Assembly: GCA_910589415.1 (NCBI GenBank) | Contig: OU342630.1 | Location: forward strand, 62,306,186 to 62,370,185 | Length of the DNA stretch: 64,000 nucleotides | DNA from: Malachius bipustulatus | Taxonomy: Eukaryota; Arthropoda; Insecta; Coleoptera; Melyridae | Direction: 5' to 3' | Part shown: positions 28,500 through 61,429 of the stretch, piece by piece | Position numbering within the stretch: position 1 is the first letter of the stretch | How the letters are laid out: each line of letters begins with the position of its first letter | Translations under genes and position numbers: made by a program | The notes under the pieces: model-generated | Databases searched by the model: none | Told to the model about the DNA's origin: nothing | Seen by the model: only the letters and a program-made list of their open reading frames with translations

Positions 28500-28510
28500 T
28501 TTATTTATAG
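28500..28510. repeat. 11-bp target-site duplication, left copy
   Basis: TTTATTTATAG at 28500-28510 recurs exactly at 29698-29708 on the other side of the ribozyme-bearing insertion. In the uninterrupted relative near 12030 the corresponding sequence occurs only once (CTTTATTTATGG). This marks the insert boundaries and a target-primed or staggered-cut insertion. Confidence 0.9.
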
Positions 28511-28581
28511 AATAATAATAATAATGGGCTTGGCTCTTCGAGCTCTCAGGCAGTCTACAAAACAGAGCCTTCCAAATAATC

Positions 28582-28647
28582 CTATCGAAATCACAGACGG
28601 ACCGTTTCGCTCTTATTATGAGCTCATCAGTGTGATATATCGAATAG
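28582..28647 (-). ncRNA. Type I hammerhead ribozyme, unit 1
   Basis: On the minus strand: CTGATGA, then stem II GCTC / GAGC with a 7-base loop, GAAA, stem III ACG / CGT with a 3-base loop, and the cleavage triplet GTC. Stem I is ATCACA / TGTGAT plus an outer TCGA / TCGA pairing across an internal loop. All invariant core positions are present. Predicted cleavage lies between 28596 and 28595 on the minus strand. Confidence 0.9.
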
Positions 28648-29014
28648 ATACATCTGGAGGATGTAATTGCAGACTGCCATCGGTCTCGAGACGTTATTAA
28701 AATCCTTCATCCGGTTCACAGTGACCCGGAGAAAATCGCTACATCTACCGATGGATGACGGAACTACCGACCTGACGGCAACTCGCGCCATTCAGAAAAA
28801 GTGGCCTCGTGCAGTTTTATATGCTATGAGGCATCGACTTTTCGTCTGGCTTTGCTGCGCAGCCAGCAGATGTCACCATCATTGCCCAATGAGAGTATAA
28901 GTACTTAGAAAAATATTAACCGAGCCGCTGTATGAAAATACAAAATAATAATAATAATGGGCTTGGCTCTTCGAGCTCTCAGGCAGTCTACAAAACAGAG
29001 CCTTCCAAATAATC

Positions 29015-29080
29015 CTATCGAAATCACAGACGGACCGTTTCGCTCTTATTATGAGCTCATCAGTGTGATATATCGAATAG
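29015..29080 (-). ncRNA. Type I hammerhead ribozyme, unit 2
   Basis: Identical to the unit 1 ribozyme, 433 bases further on. Predicted cleavage is between 29029 and 29028 on the minus strand. Cleavage at both sites in a read-through RNA would release an exact 433-nt monomer, the size a rolling-circle or circular-RNA product would have. Confidence 0.9.
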
Positions 29081-29518
29081 ATACATCTGGAGGATGTAAT
29101 TGCAGACTGCCATCGGTCTCGAGACGTTATTAAAATCCTTCATCCGGTTCACAGTGACCCGGAGAAAATCGCTACATCTACCGATGGATGACGGAACTAC
29201 CGACCTGACGGCAACTCGCGCCATTCAGAAAAAGTGGCCTCGTGCAGTTTTATATGCTATGAGGCATCGACTTTTCGTCTGGCTTTGCTGCGCAGCCAGC
29301 AGATGTCACCATCATTGCCCAATGAGAGTATAAGTACTTAGAAAAATATTAACCGAGCCGCTGTATGAAAATACAAAATAATAATAATAATGGGCTTGGC
29401 TCTTCGAGCTCTCATCGGTAGATGTAGCGATTTTCTCCGGGTCACTGTGAACCGGATGAAGGATTTTAATAACGTCTCGAGACCGATGGCAGTCTGCAAT
29501 TACATCCTCCAGATGTAT

Positions 29519-29584
29519 CTATTCGATATATCACACTGATGAGCTCATAATAAGAGCGAAACGGTCCGTCTGTGATTTCGATAG
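29519..29584 (+). ncRNA. Type I hammerhead ribozyme, inverted copy
   Basis: CTGATGA at 29536-29542, stem II at 29543-29546 / 29554-29557, GAAA at 29558-29561, stem III at 29561-29563 / 29567-29569, C17 at 29570. Stem I pairs 29571-29576 with 29530-29535, extended by TCGA 29578-29581 with 29523-29526. Cleavage is predicted after 29570 on the plus strand. Confidence 0.9.
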
Positions 29585-29697
29585 GATTATTTGGAAGGCT
29601 CTGTTTTGTAGACTGCCTGAGAGCTCGAAGAGCCAAGCCCATTATTATTATTATTTTGTATTTTCATACAGCGGCTCGGTTAATATTTTTCTAAGTA

Positions 29698-29708
29698 TTT
29701 ATTTATAG
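29698..29708. repeat. 11-bp target-site duplication, right copy
   Basis: Exact second copy of TTTATTTATAG; the host fold-back sequence resumes immediately (ACCTATTAAGAAAACTGCAA, like ACCATTAAATAAACTGCAAG near 12040). Confidence 0.9.
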
Positions 29709-33004: not shown

Positions 33005-33709
33005 CTCTACACCTTTTCCAGTTGTAATTGAGAAACGATTTTCAGAATTTCAGAATGCGTCAAATGTAATTGAGAATAGTCAAATGTAATTCAGAATGCG
33101 TCAAAATGTAATTGAGAAACCATCAAATGGAATTGAGAAAGCGTTAATTATAATTGAGAATATAGTCAAATTAAATTGAGAATGCGTCAAATGTAATTCA
33201 GAATGCGTAAATTGTAATTATTGAGAATAGGTCAAAAATTCAAATGAATTGAATAAGATCTTAACTTCAAAAAAATTTACATATTCAACTATAAAAAAAC
33301 TATGCATGCATAAAAATCCTAATTACATAGAAAACTAACAACTGTCCAACTATTGTCCAACTAGCATTGGATTGTCATCAAAAGCTCTCTTTTGTAAAAC
33401 GGAGGGAGGGGGGGGGGGTTGCGCTAAAAAAATGCTGTGACTTGTATGTGAAATTTACAAATTTTACATTATCTCAATTTCAATGGATCCATTCTGAATT
33501 CCATTTGATACTTTCCTAATTACATTTAACGCTTTCTCAATTCGATTTGATGGTTTCTCAATTACAATTAACGCATTCTCAATTACAATTGATGCATTCT
33601 GAATTACATTTGACCATTCTCAATTACAAATGACGCATTCTCAATTACATTTGACTATTCTCAATTACATTTAACCGTTTCTCAATTACACCTGGAAATG
33701 GTGTAGAAC
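33005..33709. mobile_element. FB-like element with arms built of 21-bp subrepeats
   Basis: Termini TCTACACCTTTTCCAGTTGT (33005) and its inverse ending GGAAATGGTGTAGA (33709). Each arm (about 33030-33250 and 33500-33690) is a head-to-tail array of some nine degenerate 21-22-bp units of the type TCAAATGTAATTGAGAATGC; the right arm is the inverse (CATTCTCAATTACATTTGAC). The middle holds a G-run (33403-33419) and no gene. Arms made of short tandem units are the hallmark of Drosophila Foldback and Galileo-type elements; homology to them is not shown. Confidence 0.85.
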
Positions 33710-56215: not shown

Positions 56216-56426
56216 GAAATGAACCCCTCTGTGCCATAACTTTGTAAGGGCTTAGTAAAGTAAAGGAAGATTTTATTAAAGAAATCTGACTAAGTTAATT
56301 TAAACATTTATATTCATGATAGTAAACAGAGATACTGATATAACAACTTATGTATTTCAAAGTTACCTCGAATCTGATAAACATTAAATGACCATCATAG
56401 AATCACGATGAGATGTTATCTTGTTT
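56216..56426. other. Spacer between jockey remnant and fold-back
   Basis: Short AT-rich sequence; if the jockey copy was continuous before insertion of the fold-back, most of this is not part of it, since no RT blocks are readable here. Confidence 0.4.
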
Positions 56427-57380
56427 ATACCGACTGTCCCAGAATAAAGGGGACAAACTTCTAAGGTAGAATATTTACTTGATTTTAAGACAAAAAGTCC
56501 AAATCAACCTACCCTTTAAATTGAGTATTAACGAAGTTACAGGGTGTTCAATGTACCTAAAAAAACGACATTTTTTGAATAACTCCGAAACGGCTTAATT
56601 TTTTTTTATGAATTTTTTTGTGTTGTTATTCATTAATAATTAGTCTAATATAATAACGATAATTACGTGTGTGTGATTTGAACCAGGGACGTACGGTAGA
56701 TAGGAGTCCAACTTTTTTACCCCACAATTTTTAAGCTACTGGACAAATTTTGGTTTTGACATATTTTTCCAAAAAACTAGACATTTCTGGTACAAAAAAG
56801 AGCAAAAGGTTTGCTAAGTAATTCTCAACAGTTTTTGAGATATTCACAATTGAATAAATGAAAATTCGGTAATATTTACATATAAAAATTGAAAAAATAA
56901 ATAAAACAAAGGTTGAGCTCATTGCGCAAGGAAACGTTGCTAGGATTTTTTCGTGGACGGGGTATTTATAGAAGAAGAAGTCCCACCTCAAATCTGTAAA
57001 TTCTTCCAAAAAGTGGAAAAATATTGACATAGACCTATAATTTTTTGCCCTTCTCGAATGTCGAAATCGTATACATATCTCAAAAACTGTTCAAAATTAA
57101 CCTACCAAACCTTATGCGTTTTTTTGTACCAGAACCAGAAATGTCTCACTTTTGGAAAAATATGCCAAAACCAAAATTTCTCTAGTGACGTAAAAATTAG
57201 GGGGTAAAAAAGTTGGAGCCCTGTCTACCGTACGTCCCTGGCTCAAGTTATATACCAGGTAAATTATTGCTGTAATATTAGACTAATAATTATAGAAAAA
57301 CGACACAAAAAATTTAATAAAAAAATATTCAGCCGTCTCTCCTTAGAAGTTTGTCCCCTTTATTCAGGGACATCCTGTAT
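56427..57380. mobile_element. Fold-back element, complete, 954 bp
   Basis: TATACCGACTGTCCCAGAAT with AAAGGGGACAAACTTCTAAGG inside mirrors CCTTAGAAGTTTGTCCCCTTT and GGGACATCCTGTATA at 57380. The arms also pair at GTACGGTAGATAGGAGTCCA against its inverse near 57220 and at TTCTGGTACAAAAAAG. The best-preserved copy of a family also found at 26170-27083 and 18258-18625. The 99-codon minus-strand frame 56731-57030 is a product of the arm. Confidence 0.88.
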
Positions 57381-57652
57381 AAACTGTCCTTTACGAAGAC
57401 CTCGACATCCGATATAATAGAGTGTTAGATAAGATTATAGATGTTAGAGTCATAGGAGTATTAATCAGTGTTATGTAAGTCATGTAAATGTTATATTTGA
57501 TATTTGATATTTCTGGCCACCTTGAAGGACCAAAGTTTACCACATGACAATCCTGCCATCCCGTATTAGTTTATCAGGTTACCACTATGGGCCAGATAAC
57601 CAGTTTATTACAGGGCGATCCTGCCTTCGAAACGGATCTGCCATCAGTTTAT

Positions 57653-60067: not shown

Positions 60068-60082
60068 GGGTAAAATGTAAAA
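60068..60082. repeat. 15-bp target duplication of the Penelope element, left
   Basis: GGGTAAAATGTAAAA at 60068-60082 recurs exactly at 61415-61429, defining the insertion as 60083-61414. Confidence 0.9.
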
Positions 60083-60194
60083 TTTATGTTTTCAACCCTT
60101 ATATACTTCGTAGAATCTCTGCATACTTATTGATTATGAATAAAACACTAATGTTTTATAAAATTCTACAGTATATTGATGGATACTTAGCGAA

Positions 60195-60239
60195 ACGTTA
60201 CACGTGTTTCGCTACTTTTCATGTAGCATCTTCAGACGT
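60195..60239 (-). ncRNA. Hammerhead-like motif, Penelope left arm
   Basis: Minus strand: ACGT, CTGAAGA, then T, stem II GCTAC / GTAGC, GAAA, a two-base-pair stem III (AC / GT around ACGT), cleavage triplet GTA, and ACGT closing stem I. A very short stem III is what has been reported for Penelope-element ribozymes. One extra base after CTGAAGA departs from the standard core. Confidence 0.6.
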
Positions 60240-60438
60240 AAATAAAATTATTGATACAGTAACATAGCAACAGTATTACCTAAGTGATCACAAAACAAAT
60301 AACTATACATTAGTATGGAAATTGTGCACAGCAACTGACAGTTCCAAAAAATCAATTTCGAAGAAGCGGCAAGCGGAAAATTTTTCTTGCAACGAAAGTT
60401 TCTGTTTGCCGCTTCTCCGAAATTACCGAAAAACATGA

Positions 60439-61011
60439 ATAGACGACTTATTACACAAAAAACAACACAAATTAGCCATAAACCTCATTTATCCTCAACA
60501 AAACCATGAAATCAGAAAATATTCATCACTAACATACTTTGGAAACGTTTCAACCCAAATATCAAGGATAATTTCTAACACCACTACATTTAATATTTCA
60601 TTCAAATCTTTTATGAGTAATGGTTCTATATTGCTGAATGCAAAGGAAAAGTTATCTAAATTACAGAAATCTGAAATTTATCGATTAAACTGTTCTCATT
60701 GTAATTCAGTTTATATAGGACAGACTTGTAGAAATCTAGAAATTAGATACAACGAACACCTAAACTCTTACAGACTTAAACATCCAGAAAGATCAAATTT
60801 TGCAAAACACTTAATAGAAAACAATCACACTCTAACAGCAAACAACAAAATTGAATTACTTCATCATTGTGATCATTATTTTAAATTAAATTTTCTTGAA
60901 TCTCTAGAGATCCACAGACATTTACATAATCAACAATACACAGTAATAAATGAACAGCTAGACACATATCGTTCTCCACTACTTGATTTTCTTCTTGATA
61001 TCAACAACTAA
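60439..61011 (+). pseudogene. Penelope ORF C-terminus with GIY-YIG endonuclease
   Basis: Open for 190 codons to the stop at 61009-61011; the first ATG in frame is at 60613, but the protein similarity begins at the truncation, so ATG is not the true start. Upstream LTYFGNVSTQISRIIS is the conserved connector after the reverse transcriptase. The endonuclease starts IYRLNCSHCNSVYIGQTCRN (Y...C-x2-C...YIG), followed by LEIRYNEHLNSYR, HPERSNFAKHLIENNH (the conserved H-x-x-x-N/H region) and HCDHYFKLNFLESLEIHRH with the catalytic-family E. The module cuts DNA for target priming. The reverse transcriptase itself is absent, so the fragment cannot move alone, though the surviving frame has no stop. Confidence 0.9.
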
Positions 61012-61070
61012 GAAGATTCTGAAGAAATTGCATTATGATCTAGTTAGTTCTCTTAAAAATTCATTTAAAT

Positions 61071-61242
61071 CTATACATCGGTACGAAAATTGTGTGCAGT
61101 GGCTGACATTTCCAAAAAGGTAATTTCGGAGAAGCGGCAAACAGAAACTTTCGTTGCAAGAAAAATTTTCCGCTTGCCGCTTCTTCGAAATTGATTTTTT
61201 GGAACTGTCAGTTGCTGTGCACAATTTCCATACTAATGTATA
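61071..61242. mobile_element. Palindromic MITE inside the Penelope right arm, 172 bp
   Basis: CTATACATCGGTACGAAAAT and inverse ATTTCCATACTAATGTATAG; inner GAAGCGGCAAACAGAAACTT and CTTGCCGCTTCTTCGAAATT. Same family as 23314-23486. A half copy occupies 60303-60426 in the left arm. Confidence 0.88.
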
Positions 61243-61306
61243 GTTATTTGTTTTGTGATCACTTAGGTAATACTGTTGCTATGTTACTGTATCAATAATT
61301 TTATTT

Positions 61307-61351
61307 ACGTCTGAAGATGCTACATGAAAAGTAGCGAAACACGTGTAACGT
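61307..61351 (+). ncRNA. Hammerhead-like motif, Penelope right arm
   Basis: ACGT 61307-61310, CTGAAGA 61311-61317, stem II GCTAC 61319-61323 with GTAGC 61331-61335, GAAA 61336-61339, stem III AC / GT, H17 = A at 61347, then ACGT 61348-61351 pairing back to 61307-61310. Predicted cleavage after 61347. The single unpaired T at 61318 is the one deviation. Confidence 0.62.
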
Positions 61352-61414
61352 TTCTATCATCCATCAATATACAGTAGAATTTTATAAAACATTAGTGTTT
61401 TATTCATGATCAAT

Positions 61415-61429
61415 GGGTAAAATGTAAAA
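61415..61429. repeat. 15-bp target duplication of the Penelope element, right
   Basis: Exact second copy of GGGTAAAATGTAAAA. Confidence 0.9.

Follow-up and report, generated by a model that had tools for sequence, protein, structure and literature searches.

The insert at positions 28511 to 29697 of the window, by which we mean the whole 64-kb stretch of DNA that was analysed, belongs to a multicopy family of metazoan non-LTR retrozymes, a kind of element that is already known but whose insertion anatomy here is apparently undescribed for retrozymes. Its tandem units run in two head-to-head arms between target-site duplications, the outer ends of the arms mostly lie at two preferred sites, called A and B below, and in these respects the retrozyme and Penelope-like element (PLE) inserts of this genome look the same. 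Judging from these features, we consider it quite probable that the non-coding retrozyme was inserted by the machinery of a GIY-YIG PLE, from both cut strands on an RNA circle. It seems that a small parasitic RNA, which carries a self-cutting ribozyme, made a copy of itself in an animal genome.

The first arm of the insert consists of two 433-bp units in tandem (28511 to 28943 and 28944 to 29376), which differ at 0 of 433 positions, and of about 38 bp from the start of a third unit (29377 to 29414), all with the ribozyme sense on the minus strand; TRF gave a tandem period of 433, and the GC content of the unit is 44.3%. The second arm (29413 to 29697) is inverted, with the ribozyme sense on the plus strand, and from 29413 it is complementary to 28897 to 29186 with 1 mismatch in 290. 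Unit coordinates (m) were counted from the predicted cleavage site as m1, in the ribozyme-sense direction. By this count, the left edge of the insert at 28511 lies at start site A (m85), the minus arm ends at m48, and the plus arm runs from m276 round to about m127-132, where the right edge lies at start site B. The arms meet at 29413 to 29414 in a non-palindromic 2-nt overlap, m48 against m276. The direct units being minus-sense and the inverted copy plus-sense, both sense 3' ends face outward. The insert is flanked by the 11-bp duplication TTTATTTATAG (28500 to 28510 and 29698 to 29708), which becomes 12 bp when the next A, common to the element, is included. The original prediction had read this stretch as one insertion with two tandem units, an inverted partial copy and an 11-bp duplication, and all of this was borne out; the inverted copy, which it had left unexplained, is the most informative part.

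The longest listed open reading frame overlapping the insert has 77 codons' worth of protein (77 aa), so the insert is non-coding and, as had been proposed, would depend on enzymes supplied in trans. It is not itself a PLE, because it has no long ORF for a reverse transcriptase and a GIY-YIG domain. No LTR structure was visible in the insert, and ARAGORN found no tRNA in the 64-kb window. A SINE with a tRNA head, which the original prediction had offered as the other option, was rejected, as there was no tRNA head in the window, no Rfam family at its gathering score and no poly-A, and the ends are the A and B sites. Elsewhere in the window, we observed nested inverted repeats at 56423 to 57384 (arms of 44, 78 and 106 nt, 82 to 91% complementary) that resemble a fold-back or terminal-inverted-repeat element, and two tandem arrays about 250 bp apart (33045 to 33219 and 33472 to 33690) whose 21-bp units look mutually reverse-complementary.

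Type I hammerhead ribozymes (HHRs) are present in unit 1 (28590 to 28636, minus strand), in unit 2 (29023 to 29069, minus) and in the inverted arm (29530 to 29576, plus), with predicted cleavage between 28596 and 28595, between 29029 and 29028, and between 29570 and 29571, respectively. All three pair in stem I (AUCACA/UGUGAU, 6 bp), stem II (GCUC/GAGC, 4 bp) and stem III (ACG/CGU, 3 bp, with a 3-nt loop). An HHR stretch of 41 nt occurs three times with 0 mismatches (28592-28632 and 29025-29065, minus; 29534-29574, plus), which happened in 0 of 100 shuffles, and the Rfam model Hammerhead_1 (RF00163) matched each HHR with 31.7 bits and an E value of 1.4e-5 in a search of a 1.4-kb stretch. The Rfam match and the shuffles ruled out a chance hammerhead. 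Since 31.7 bits is below the gathering score of 34, the window-wide gathering search was empty, no Rfam family reaching its gathering score in the 64 kb; in a permissive window-wide search, HH9, a related model, ranked best at the same sites (28.5 bits, E = 0.0055, cut-off 52). The claim of three complete hammerheads, with core and stems I to III intact, stood. In the Infernal check suggested along with it, Hammerhead_1 did match, and its score under the cut-off partly amounts to the poor covariance score that had been named as a sign against the ribozyme. We infer that the RNA would cleave itself in vivo.

The insert was compared with the genome (544 Mb, 52 contigs), and this revealed at least 214 match rows, several per copy and on both strands, which were grouped into at least 39 places, so that a single-locus oddity is excluded. 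The 433-family sample comprised the window insert and 38 further loci, being all distinct places grouped from the matches listed, with 40 of 215 candidates scored; at L016 one of two adjacent copies was measured. Near-identical copies were found at unrelated loci, each with its own target duplication, and the unit length differed between loci (429, 430 or 433). The 48-nt HHR segment was the least divergent of all 433 circular segments of the unit (1.15% versus 5.9%, 38 loci), a hint that spread depends on the ribozyme, and the HHR core strings were retained in 91 of 93 near-full-length HHR matches, counting only matches that cover nearly all of the 78-nt query and using a loose core-string test. 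These data agree with the earlier proposal of a recently moved retrozyme family.

The genome holds at least two further retrozyme families, with units of 320 and 461 bp. In a genome search with the Rfam model, 74 of 73,468 first-look candidates were scored, all 74 of them above the cut-off and 52 at 58.7 bits, and 29 fetched places among the scored matches belong to the 320 family. The 320 sample took in the first 20 of the places whose HHRs score 58.7 bits, together with 9 of the 11 that follow (C1:41442274 and C1:57025916 were left out), and is biased toward intact HHRs; its HHR divergence was 0.3% versus 3.1%, a value equally low in 24 of 320 segments and obtained from a sample itself found via the HHR. 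At L034:2581-3499, a retrozyme variant spaced at about 313 bp was seen that resembles the 320-bp unit to 79%. The 461 family was found by a core-and-stem scan of fetched flanks and is represented by two head-to-head inserts, L067:655-4928 and L068:489-914, with 12- and 13-bp duplications. Beyond the HHR, the three units have little in common, except that those of 433 and 461 bp also agree over a short segment that follows it. The sequences of stems I and II are not the same among the three retrozymes and the PLE, but the stems pair in 4 of 4; a MAFFT alignment of five hammerheads was too poor for pair counting, and the stems of these four were checked by script.

In total, 70 retrozyme inserts were measured (39 of the 433 family, 20 plus 9 of the 320 family and 2 of the 461 family), and both this sample and that of the PLEs are partial and partly selected. 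Two-armed inserts numbered 43 of 70 and one-armed inserts 27 of 70. In all 43 two-armed inserts a minus arm was followed by a plus arm, that is, head-to-head with the sense 3' ends outward (36 of 36 among the first 59 inserts, 5 among the nine 320-family inserts added later and the 2 of the 461 family). The inverted copy in the window is thus a recurring pattern and no accident.

The outer ends of the inserts were concentrated at A and B. For the 433 family, 28 of 64 outer ends fell in A (m76-98), 29 in B (m117-137) and 7 elsewhere, and for the 320 family the corresponding numbers were 17, 13 and 1 of 31 (A, m74-86; B, m219-236). The two ranges together make up about 10% of each unit and hold 57 of 64 and 30 of 31 outer ends, respectively, while inner ends were scattered, with 7 of 64 and 3 of 31 inside these ranges. 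Of the 27 one-armed inserts, 26 likewise ended at one of these two sites. The two ends of a two-armed insert were mostly paired by a rule: 33 of the 43 were A/B, 2 were B/B, none was A/A, and 8 had an end elsewhere. If ends were independent and even, the probability of at least 33 discordant pairs in 35 would be 1.8e-8. Both inserts of the 461 family were A/B, as were 3 of the 5 two-armed inserts among the nine further ones of the 320 family. The B/B inserts are L097 and L019, the latter a doubtful case inside TA repeats whose right end, m119, only just falls within B and which was nonetheless scored B/B. Among the inserts with an end elsewhere, no duplication was found for L012, L016, L028, L033, L042 and L057, and one was present for L034 and L090. 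The right end of L060 was set manually to m229, and the B end of L064 rests on a 78% match.

A and B were about 45 nt apart in the 433 family, 39-45 nt apart in the 461 family and 43-46 nt apart in the PLE; the 320 family departs from this, with about 149 nt. The distance from the HHR to A was 77-98 nt (433), 77-83 nt (320) and 70-82 nt (PLE), but 182-188 nt in the 461 family. Circle folds were predicted for the 433 and 320 units: of 36 positions near A or B, 26 were unpaired more often than not, the unit means being 36% and 46% unpaired. When the PLE start sites were compared with those of the three retrozymes, no convincing common motif emerged: 1 of 24 pairs was below 5% (PLE A versus 461 B), as expected by chance.

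An exact duplication of at least 12 bp flanked 33 of 59 inserts (8 of them in TA repeats) versus 9 of 346 mispaired flanks. Outside TA repeats, a duplication of at least 9 bp, with one mismatch allowed from 10 bp, was found for 32 of 59 inserts, with a mode of 12-13 bp; retrozyme duplications were mostly 12-14 bp. The AT content was 85% in the duplications versus 65% in the flanks. Eight inserts of the 433 family lie in (TA)n microsatellites (L010, L011, L014, L017, L019, L023, L036 and L040), and their duplications are therefore hard to measure; this location is in line with a preference for AT-rich targets.

The window also contains a two-armed Penelope-like insert (60083 to 61414), flanked by 15-bp duplications (60068 to 60082 and 61415 to 61429), in which the end of a GIY-YIG ORF lies between inverted arms, the left one extending 46 nt beyond the point where the right one ends. 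The endonuclease end of this ORF (132 aa, 60613 to 61011, plus strand) matched PF01541 with 22.6 bits (cut-off 22.6). A minimal HHR is present in the left arm (60195 to 60239, minus), which is 100% complementary to the right arm here, and in the right arm (61307 to 61351, plus), where stems I, II and III pair. A genome search with the terminal repeat of this PLE yielded 2556 first-look candidates, of which 40 were scored, and 20 PLE regions were fetched; 19 of these and the window copy were two-armed, and the one-armed L085 was left uncounted. These regions and a larger copy, L089, were chosen mostly for adjacent minus and plus matches, so that two-armedness and arm order were preselected, while the A/B rule was not. 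In 20 of 20 two-armed copies, one end lay 70-82 nt and the other 114-116 nt past the HHR cleavage site (the B end of L081, behind a gap, was read by hand). L089 was also A/B, with ends at 76 and 120, bringing the count to 21 of 21 two-armed PLEs. Its RVT_1 and GIY-YIG matches fall in an ORF that seems to be fragmented, and a PDB search with one of the fragments gave no match. The PLE duplications were 12 bp in 12 of 20 copies, 11-18 bp in five more and 7 bp in L081, and none was found for L077 and L082. Since retrozyme insertion scars match those of PLEs in the same genome, they point to a PLE enzyme as the mover.

PLEs have been proposed as retrozyme mobilisers on the basis of shared HHRs, tandem copies and co-occurrence (PMC7229834, PMC7761336); the retrozyme repeats are described as having no motif that helps deduce the partner (PMC7761336), and the view of retrozymes as possible reduced PLEs is already in print (PMC11722881). 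Frangieh et al. reported that the Anolis PLE protein PAc cuts and extends both strands, has a preference for ATT or AT-rich DNA and initiates reverse transcription within the RNA at two sites, the interval between which is the 30-40-bp 'tail' (PMC11167929). From the cut at +26 and the main start at +111 to +118 given there, we calculated an HHR-to-start distance of 85-92 nt.

The steps that we infer from the units, hammerheads, ends, arm order and duplications would be as follows. A genomic array would be transcribed, the hammerhead would cut the RNA into 433-nt units, and a host ligase would close these into circles. A PLE protein would then make a cut in each strand of AT-rich DNA, with about 12 bp between the two cuts, and the free 3' ends would serve as primers for reverse transcription of the retrozyme RNA, with A as the start for one and B for the other, the closed template letting each cDNA go round several times. 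Finally, the two cDNAs would be joined where they stop, leaving head-to-head tandem arms between duplications of about 12 bp. Against PLE-type insertion stand the 27 of 70 inserts with one arm, the two B/B inserts, the eight with an end elsewhere, the uneven A-B spacing and HHR-to-A distance and the want of convincing sequence similarity between PLE and retrozyme start sites; the Hammerhead_1 score under the gathering cut-off also counts against the overall reading.

On a cleaved linear monomer, a cDNA begun at A (m85) would have no more than 85 nt of template, whereas many arms run on through the cleavage site, up to about 10.7 units in L013. Variable columns in long arrays were few: 1 in 10 units of L013, 2 in 6 of L011 and 0 in 4 of L047 and, over the units of both arms, 1 in 8 of L067, 2 in 6 of L010 and 2 in 5 of L014, the unit length being constant inside each of these. 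The arms that cross the cleavage site and the near-identity of their units fit a monomeric circle in most cases. An unlikely alternative, though one with evidence in its favour, is that the same PLE-type two-strand insertion would proceed from an uncleaved or partly cleaved linear multimer, with no circle. HHR mutants insert as well as the wild type in the PAc system in vitro, where cleavage is not needed (PMC11167929), and the ribozyme may therefore be unneeded for insertion itself. The one-armed 320-family insert L093 (L093:361-758), whose arm spans about 1.25 units, has its inner end precisely at the cleavage site (m1), with a 13-bp duplication two bases further out, as would be expected from an HHR-cut linear multimer, so that linear templates may also be used; moreover, unit lengths were unequal inside two arrays (431 and 444 in L018, 317 and 316 in L049). 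Multimers transcribed from older arrays should, however, carry differences between their units, and almost all units of the long arms are identical.

Whether circular or linear, the RNA may have served both arms of an insert. The arm-arm identity was at least 97.5% in 23 of 28 comparisons (17 of 20 in the 433 family and 6 of 8 in the 320 family), with lower values for L033 (89.9%), L062 (91.2%), L043 (95.1%), L034 (96.6%) and L051 (97.4%). Between loci, the median identities of the 433 family were mostly 93-95%, two divergent loci having 88%, and those of the 320 family were 94-98%; often another locus matches an arm as well as its partner arm does. The arm-arm identities suggest that both arms may have been copied from one RNA molecule.

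Head-to-head order, duplications and joined cDNAs would also be produced by LINE-type twin priming, in which the enzyme of a LINE primes once at the 3' end of the RNA and once more internally, with a 5' inversion as the result. In LINE inversions, the second priming occurs at varied internal places. Both outer ends lay at fixed sites in 35 of the 43 two-armed retrozyme inserts, no poly-A end was seen among the insert contexts inspected, and the same signature is carried by PLEs of the same genome, which were the only comparison elements; twin priming by a LINE enzyme is accordingly improbable.

We regard as more improbable still that a single cDNA or antisense strand serves as its own template after folding back, a hairpin self-priming that has been proposed for the palindromes of rotifer Penelopes (PMC3846280). 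Such priming accounts for head-to-head inverted repeats, and the arms are mostly near-identical. It would, however, join the arms at the same coordinate, and the A/B inserts compared mostly differ there, as in the window (m48 versus m276); the arms met at the same coordinate in L032 (77/77) and L060 (4/4) and differed by less than 25 nt in L009, L014, L031, L061 and L062. The differing junction coordinates therefore argue against fold-back and for two independently primed cDNAs, and fold-back leaves the two different fixed outer ends unexplained. Finally, ordinary satellite DNA, with arrays arising via unequal crossing-over and the ribozyme as a passenger, would account for the homogeneity of the tandem units but is scarcely credible given that the arrays are short, are spread over many unrelated loci, in many cases have an 11-14-bp duplication of their own, show preferred ends and keep the HHR core in 91 of 93 matches.

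Like the metazoan non-LTR retrozymes of Cervera and de la Pena (2020; PMC7229834), the elements studied here are non-coding tandem units of a few hundred base pairs with a type I HHR, a GC content under 45-50%, duplications longer than 4 bp and co-residence with HHR-bearing PLEs. The 433-bp unit is slightly larger than the 170-400-nt circles stated for metazoan retrozymes, and the available text of that paper presents these as tandem repeats, with inverted two-armed inserts and fixed A/B ends undescribed there (PMC7229834). Plant LTR retrozymes (PMC4918200; described in PMC7229834 and PMC7761336) are similar in having an HHR, in being non-autonomous and in spreading via circular RNA, but differ in their type III HHR, LTRs, tRNA primer site, 4-bp duplications and a probable use of Gypsy machinery. 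Another insect tandem repeat with a hammerhead, pDo500 of cave crickets, is described as satellite DNA (PMC2837043).

Closer parallels to the insertion anatomy come from PLEs. According to Arkhipova et al., a typical Penelope insert has direct pLTRs and one head-to-head inverted pLTR, with an optional tail at one inverted end, and self-priming on an antisense template was suggested (PMC3846280). The Penelopes of Adineta vaga resemble the present inserts in their head-to-head inverted terminal repeats, short duplications and optional one-end 'tail' (PMC3846280), and Anolis PAc does so in cutting and extending both strands and in having two start sites of reverse transcription with an HHR near them (PMC11167929). 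The retrozymes differ from GIY-YIG PLEs in having no ORF and in that the whole retrozyme unit repeats. A rule of one A and one B end per insert is stated neither in PMC3846280 nor in PMC11167929, as far as the available text of these papers goes, and the latter reports no start-site difference between the two strands. No description of two-armed retrozyme inserts was found in the parts of the retrozyme and Penelope literature that were searched, preprints and most subscription papers being excluded.

The mechanistic signature shared by the retrozyme inserts and the PLEs of the same genome makes the question of the retrozyme mobiliser testable, and it also provides a straightforward explanation for why Penelope elements are built with inverted repeats. 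A further proposal, which we put forward tentatively and with slightly more doubt than belief, is that a two-headed complex docks A and B of one RNA, one per cut strand, in all full GIY-YIG Penelope and retrozyme insertions. If so, A/B ends, head-to-head arms and the one-arm 'tail' would be one phenomenon, the direct-plus-inverted repeats of PLEs would be explained, and retrozymes would be RNA circles that keep the docking module and the hammerhead.
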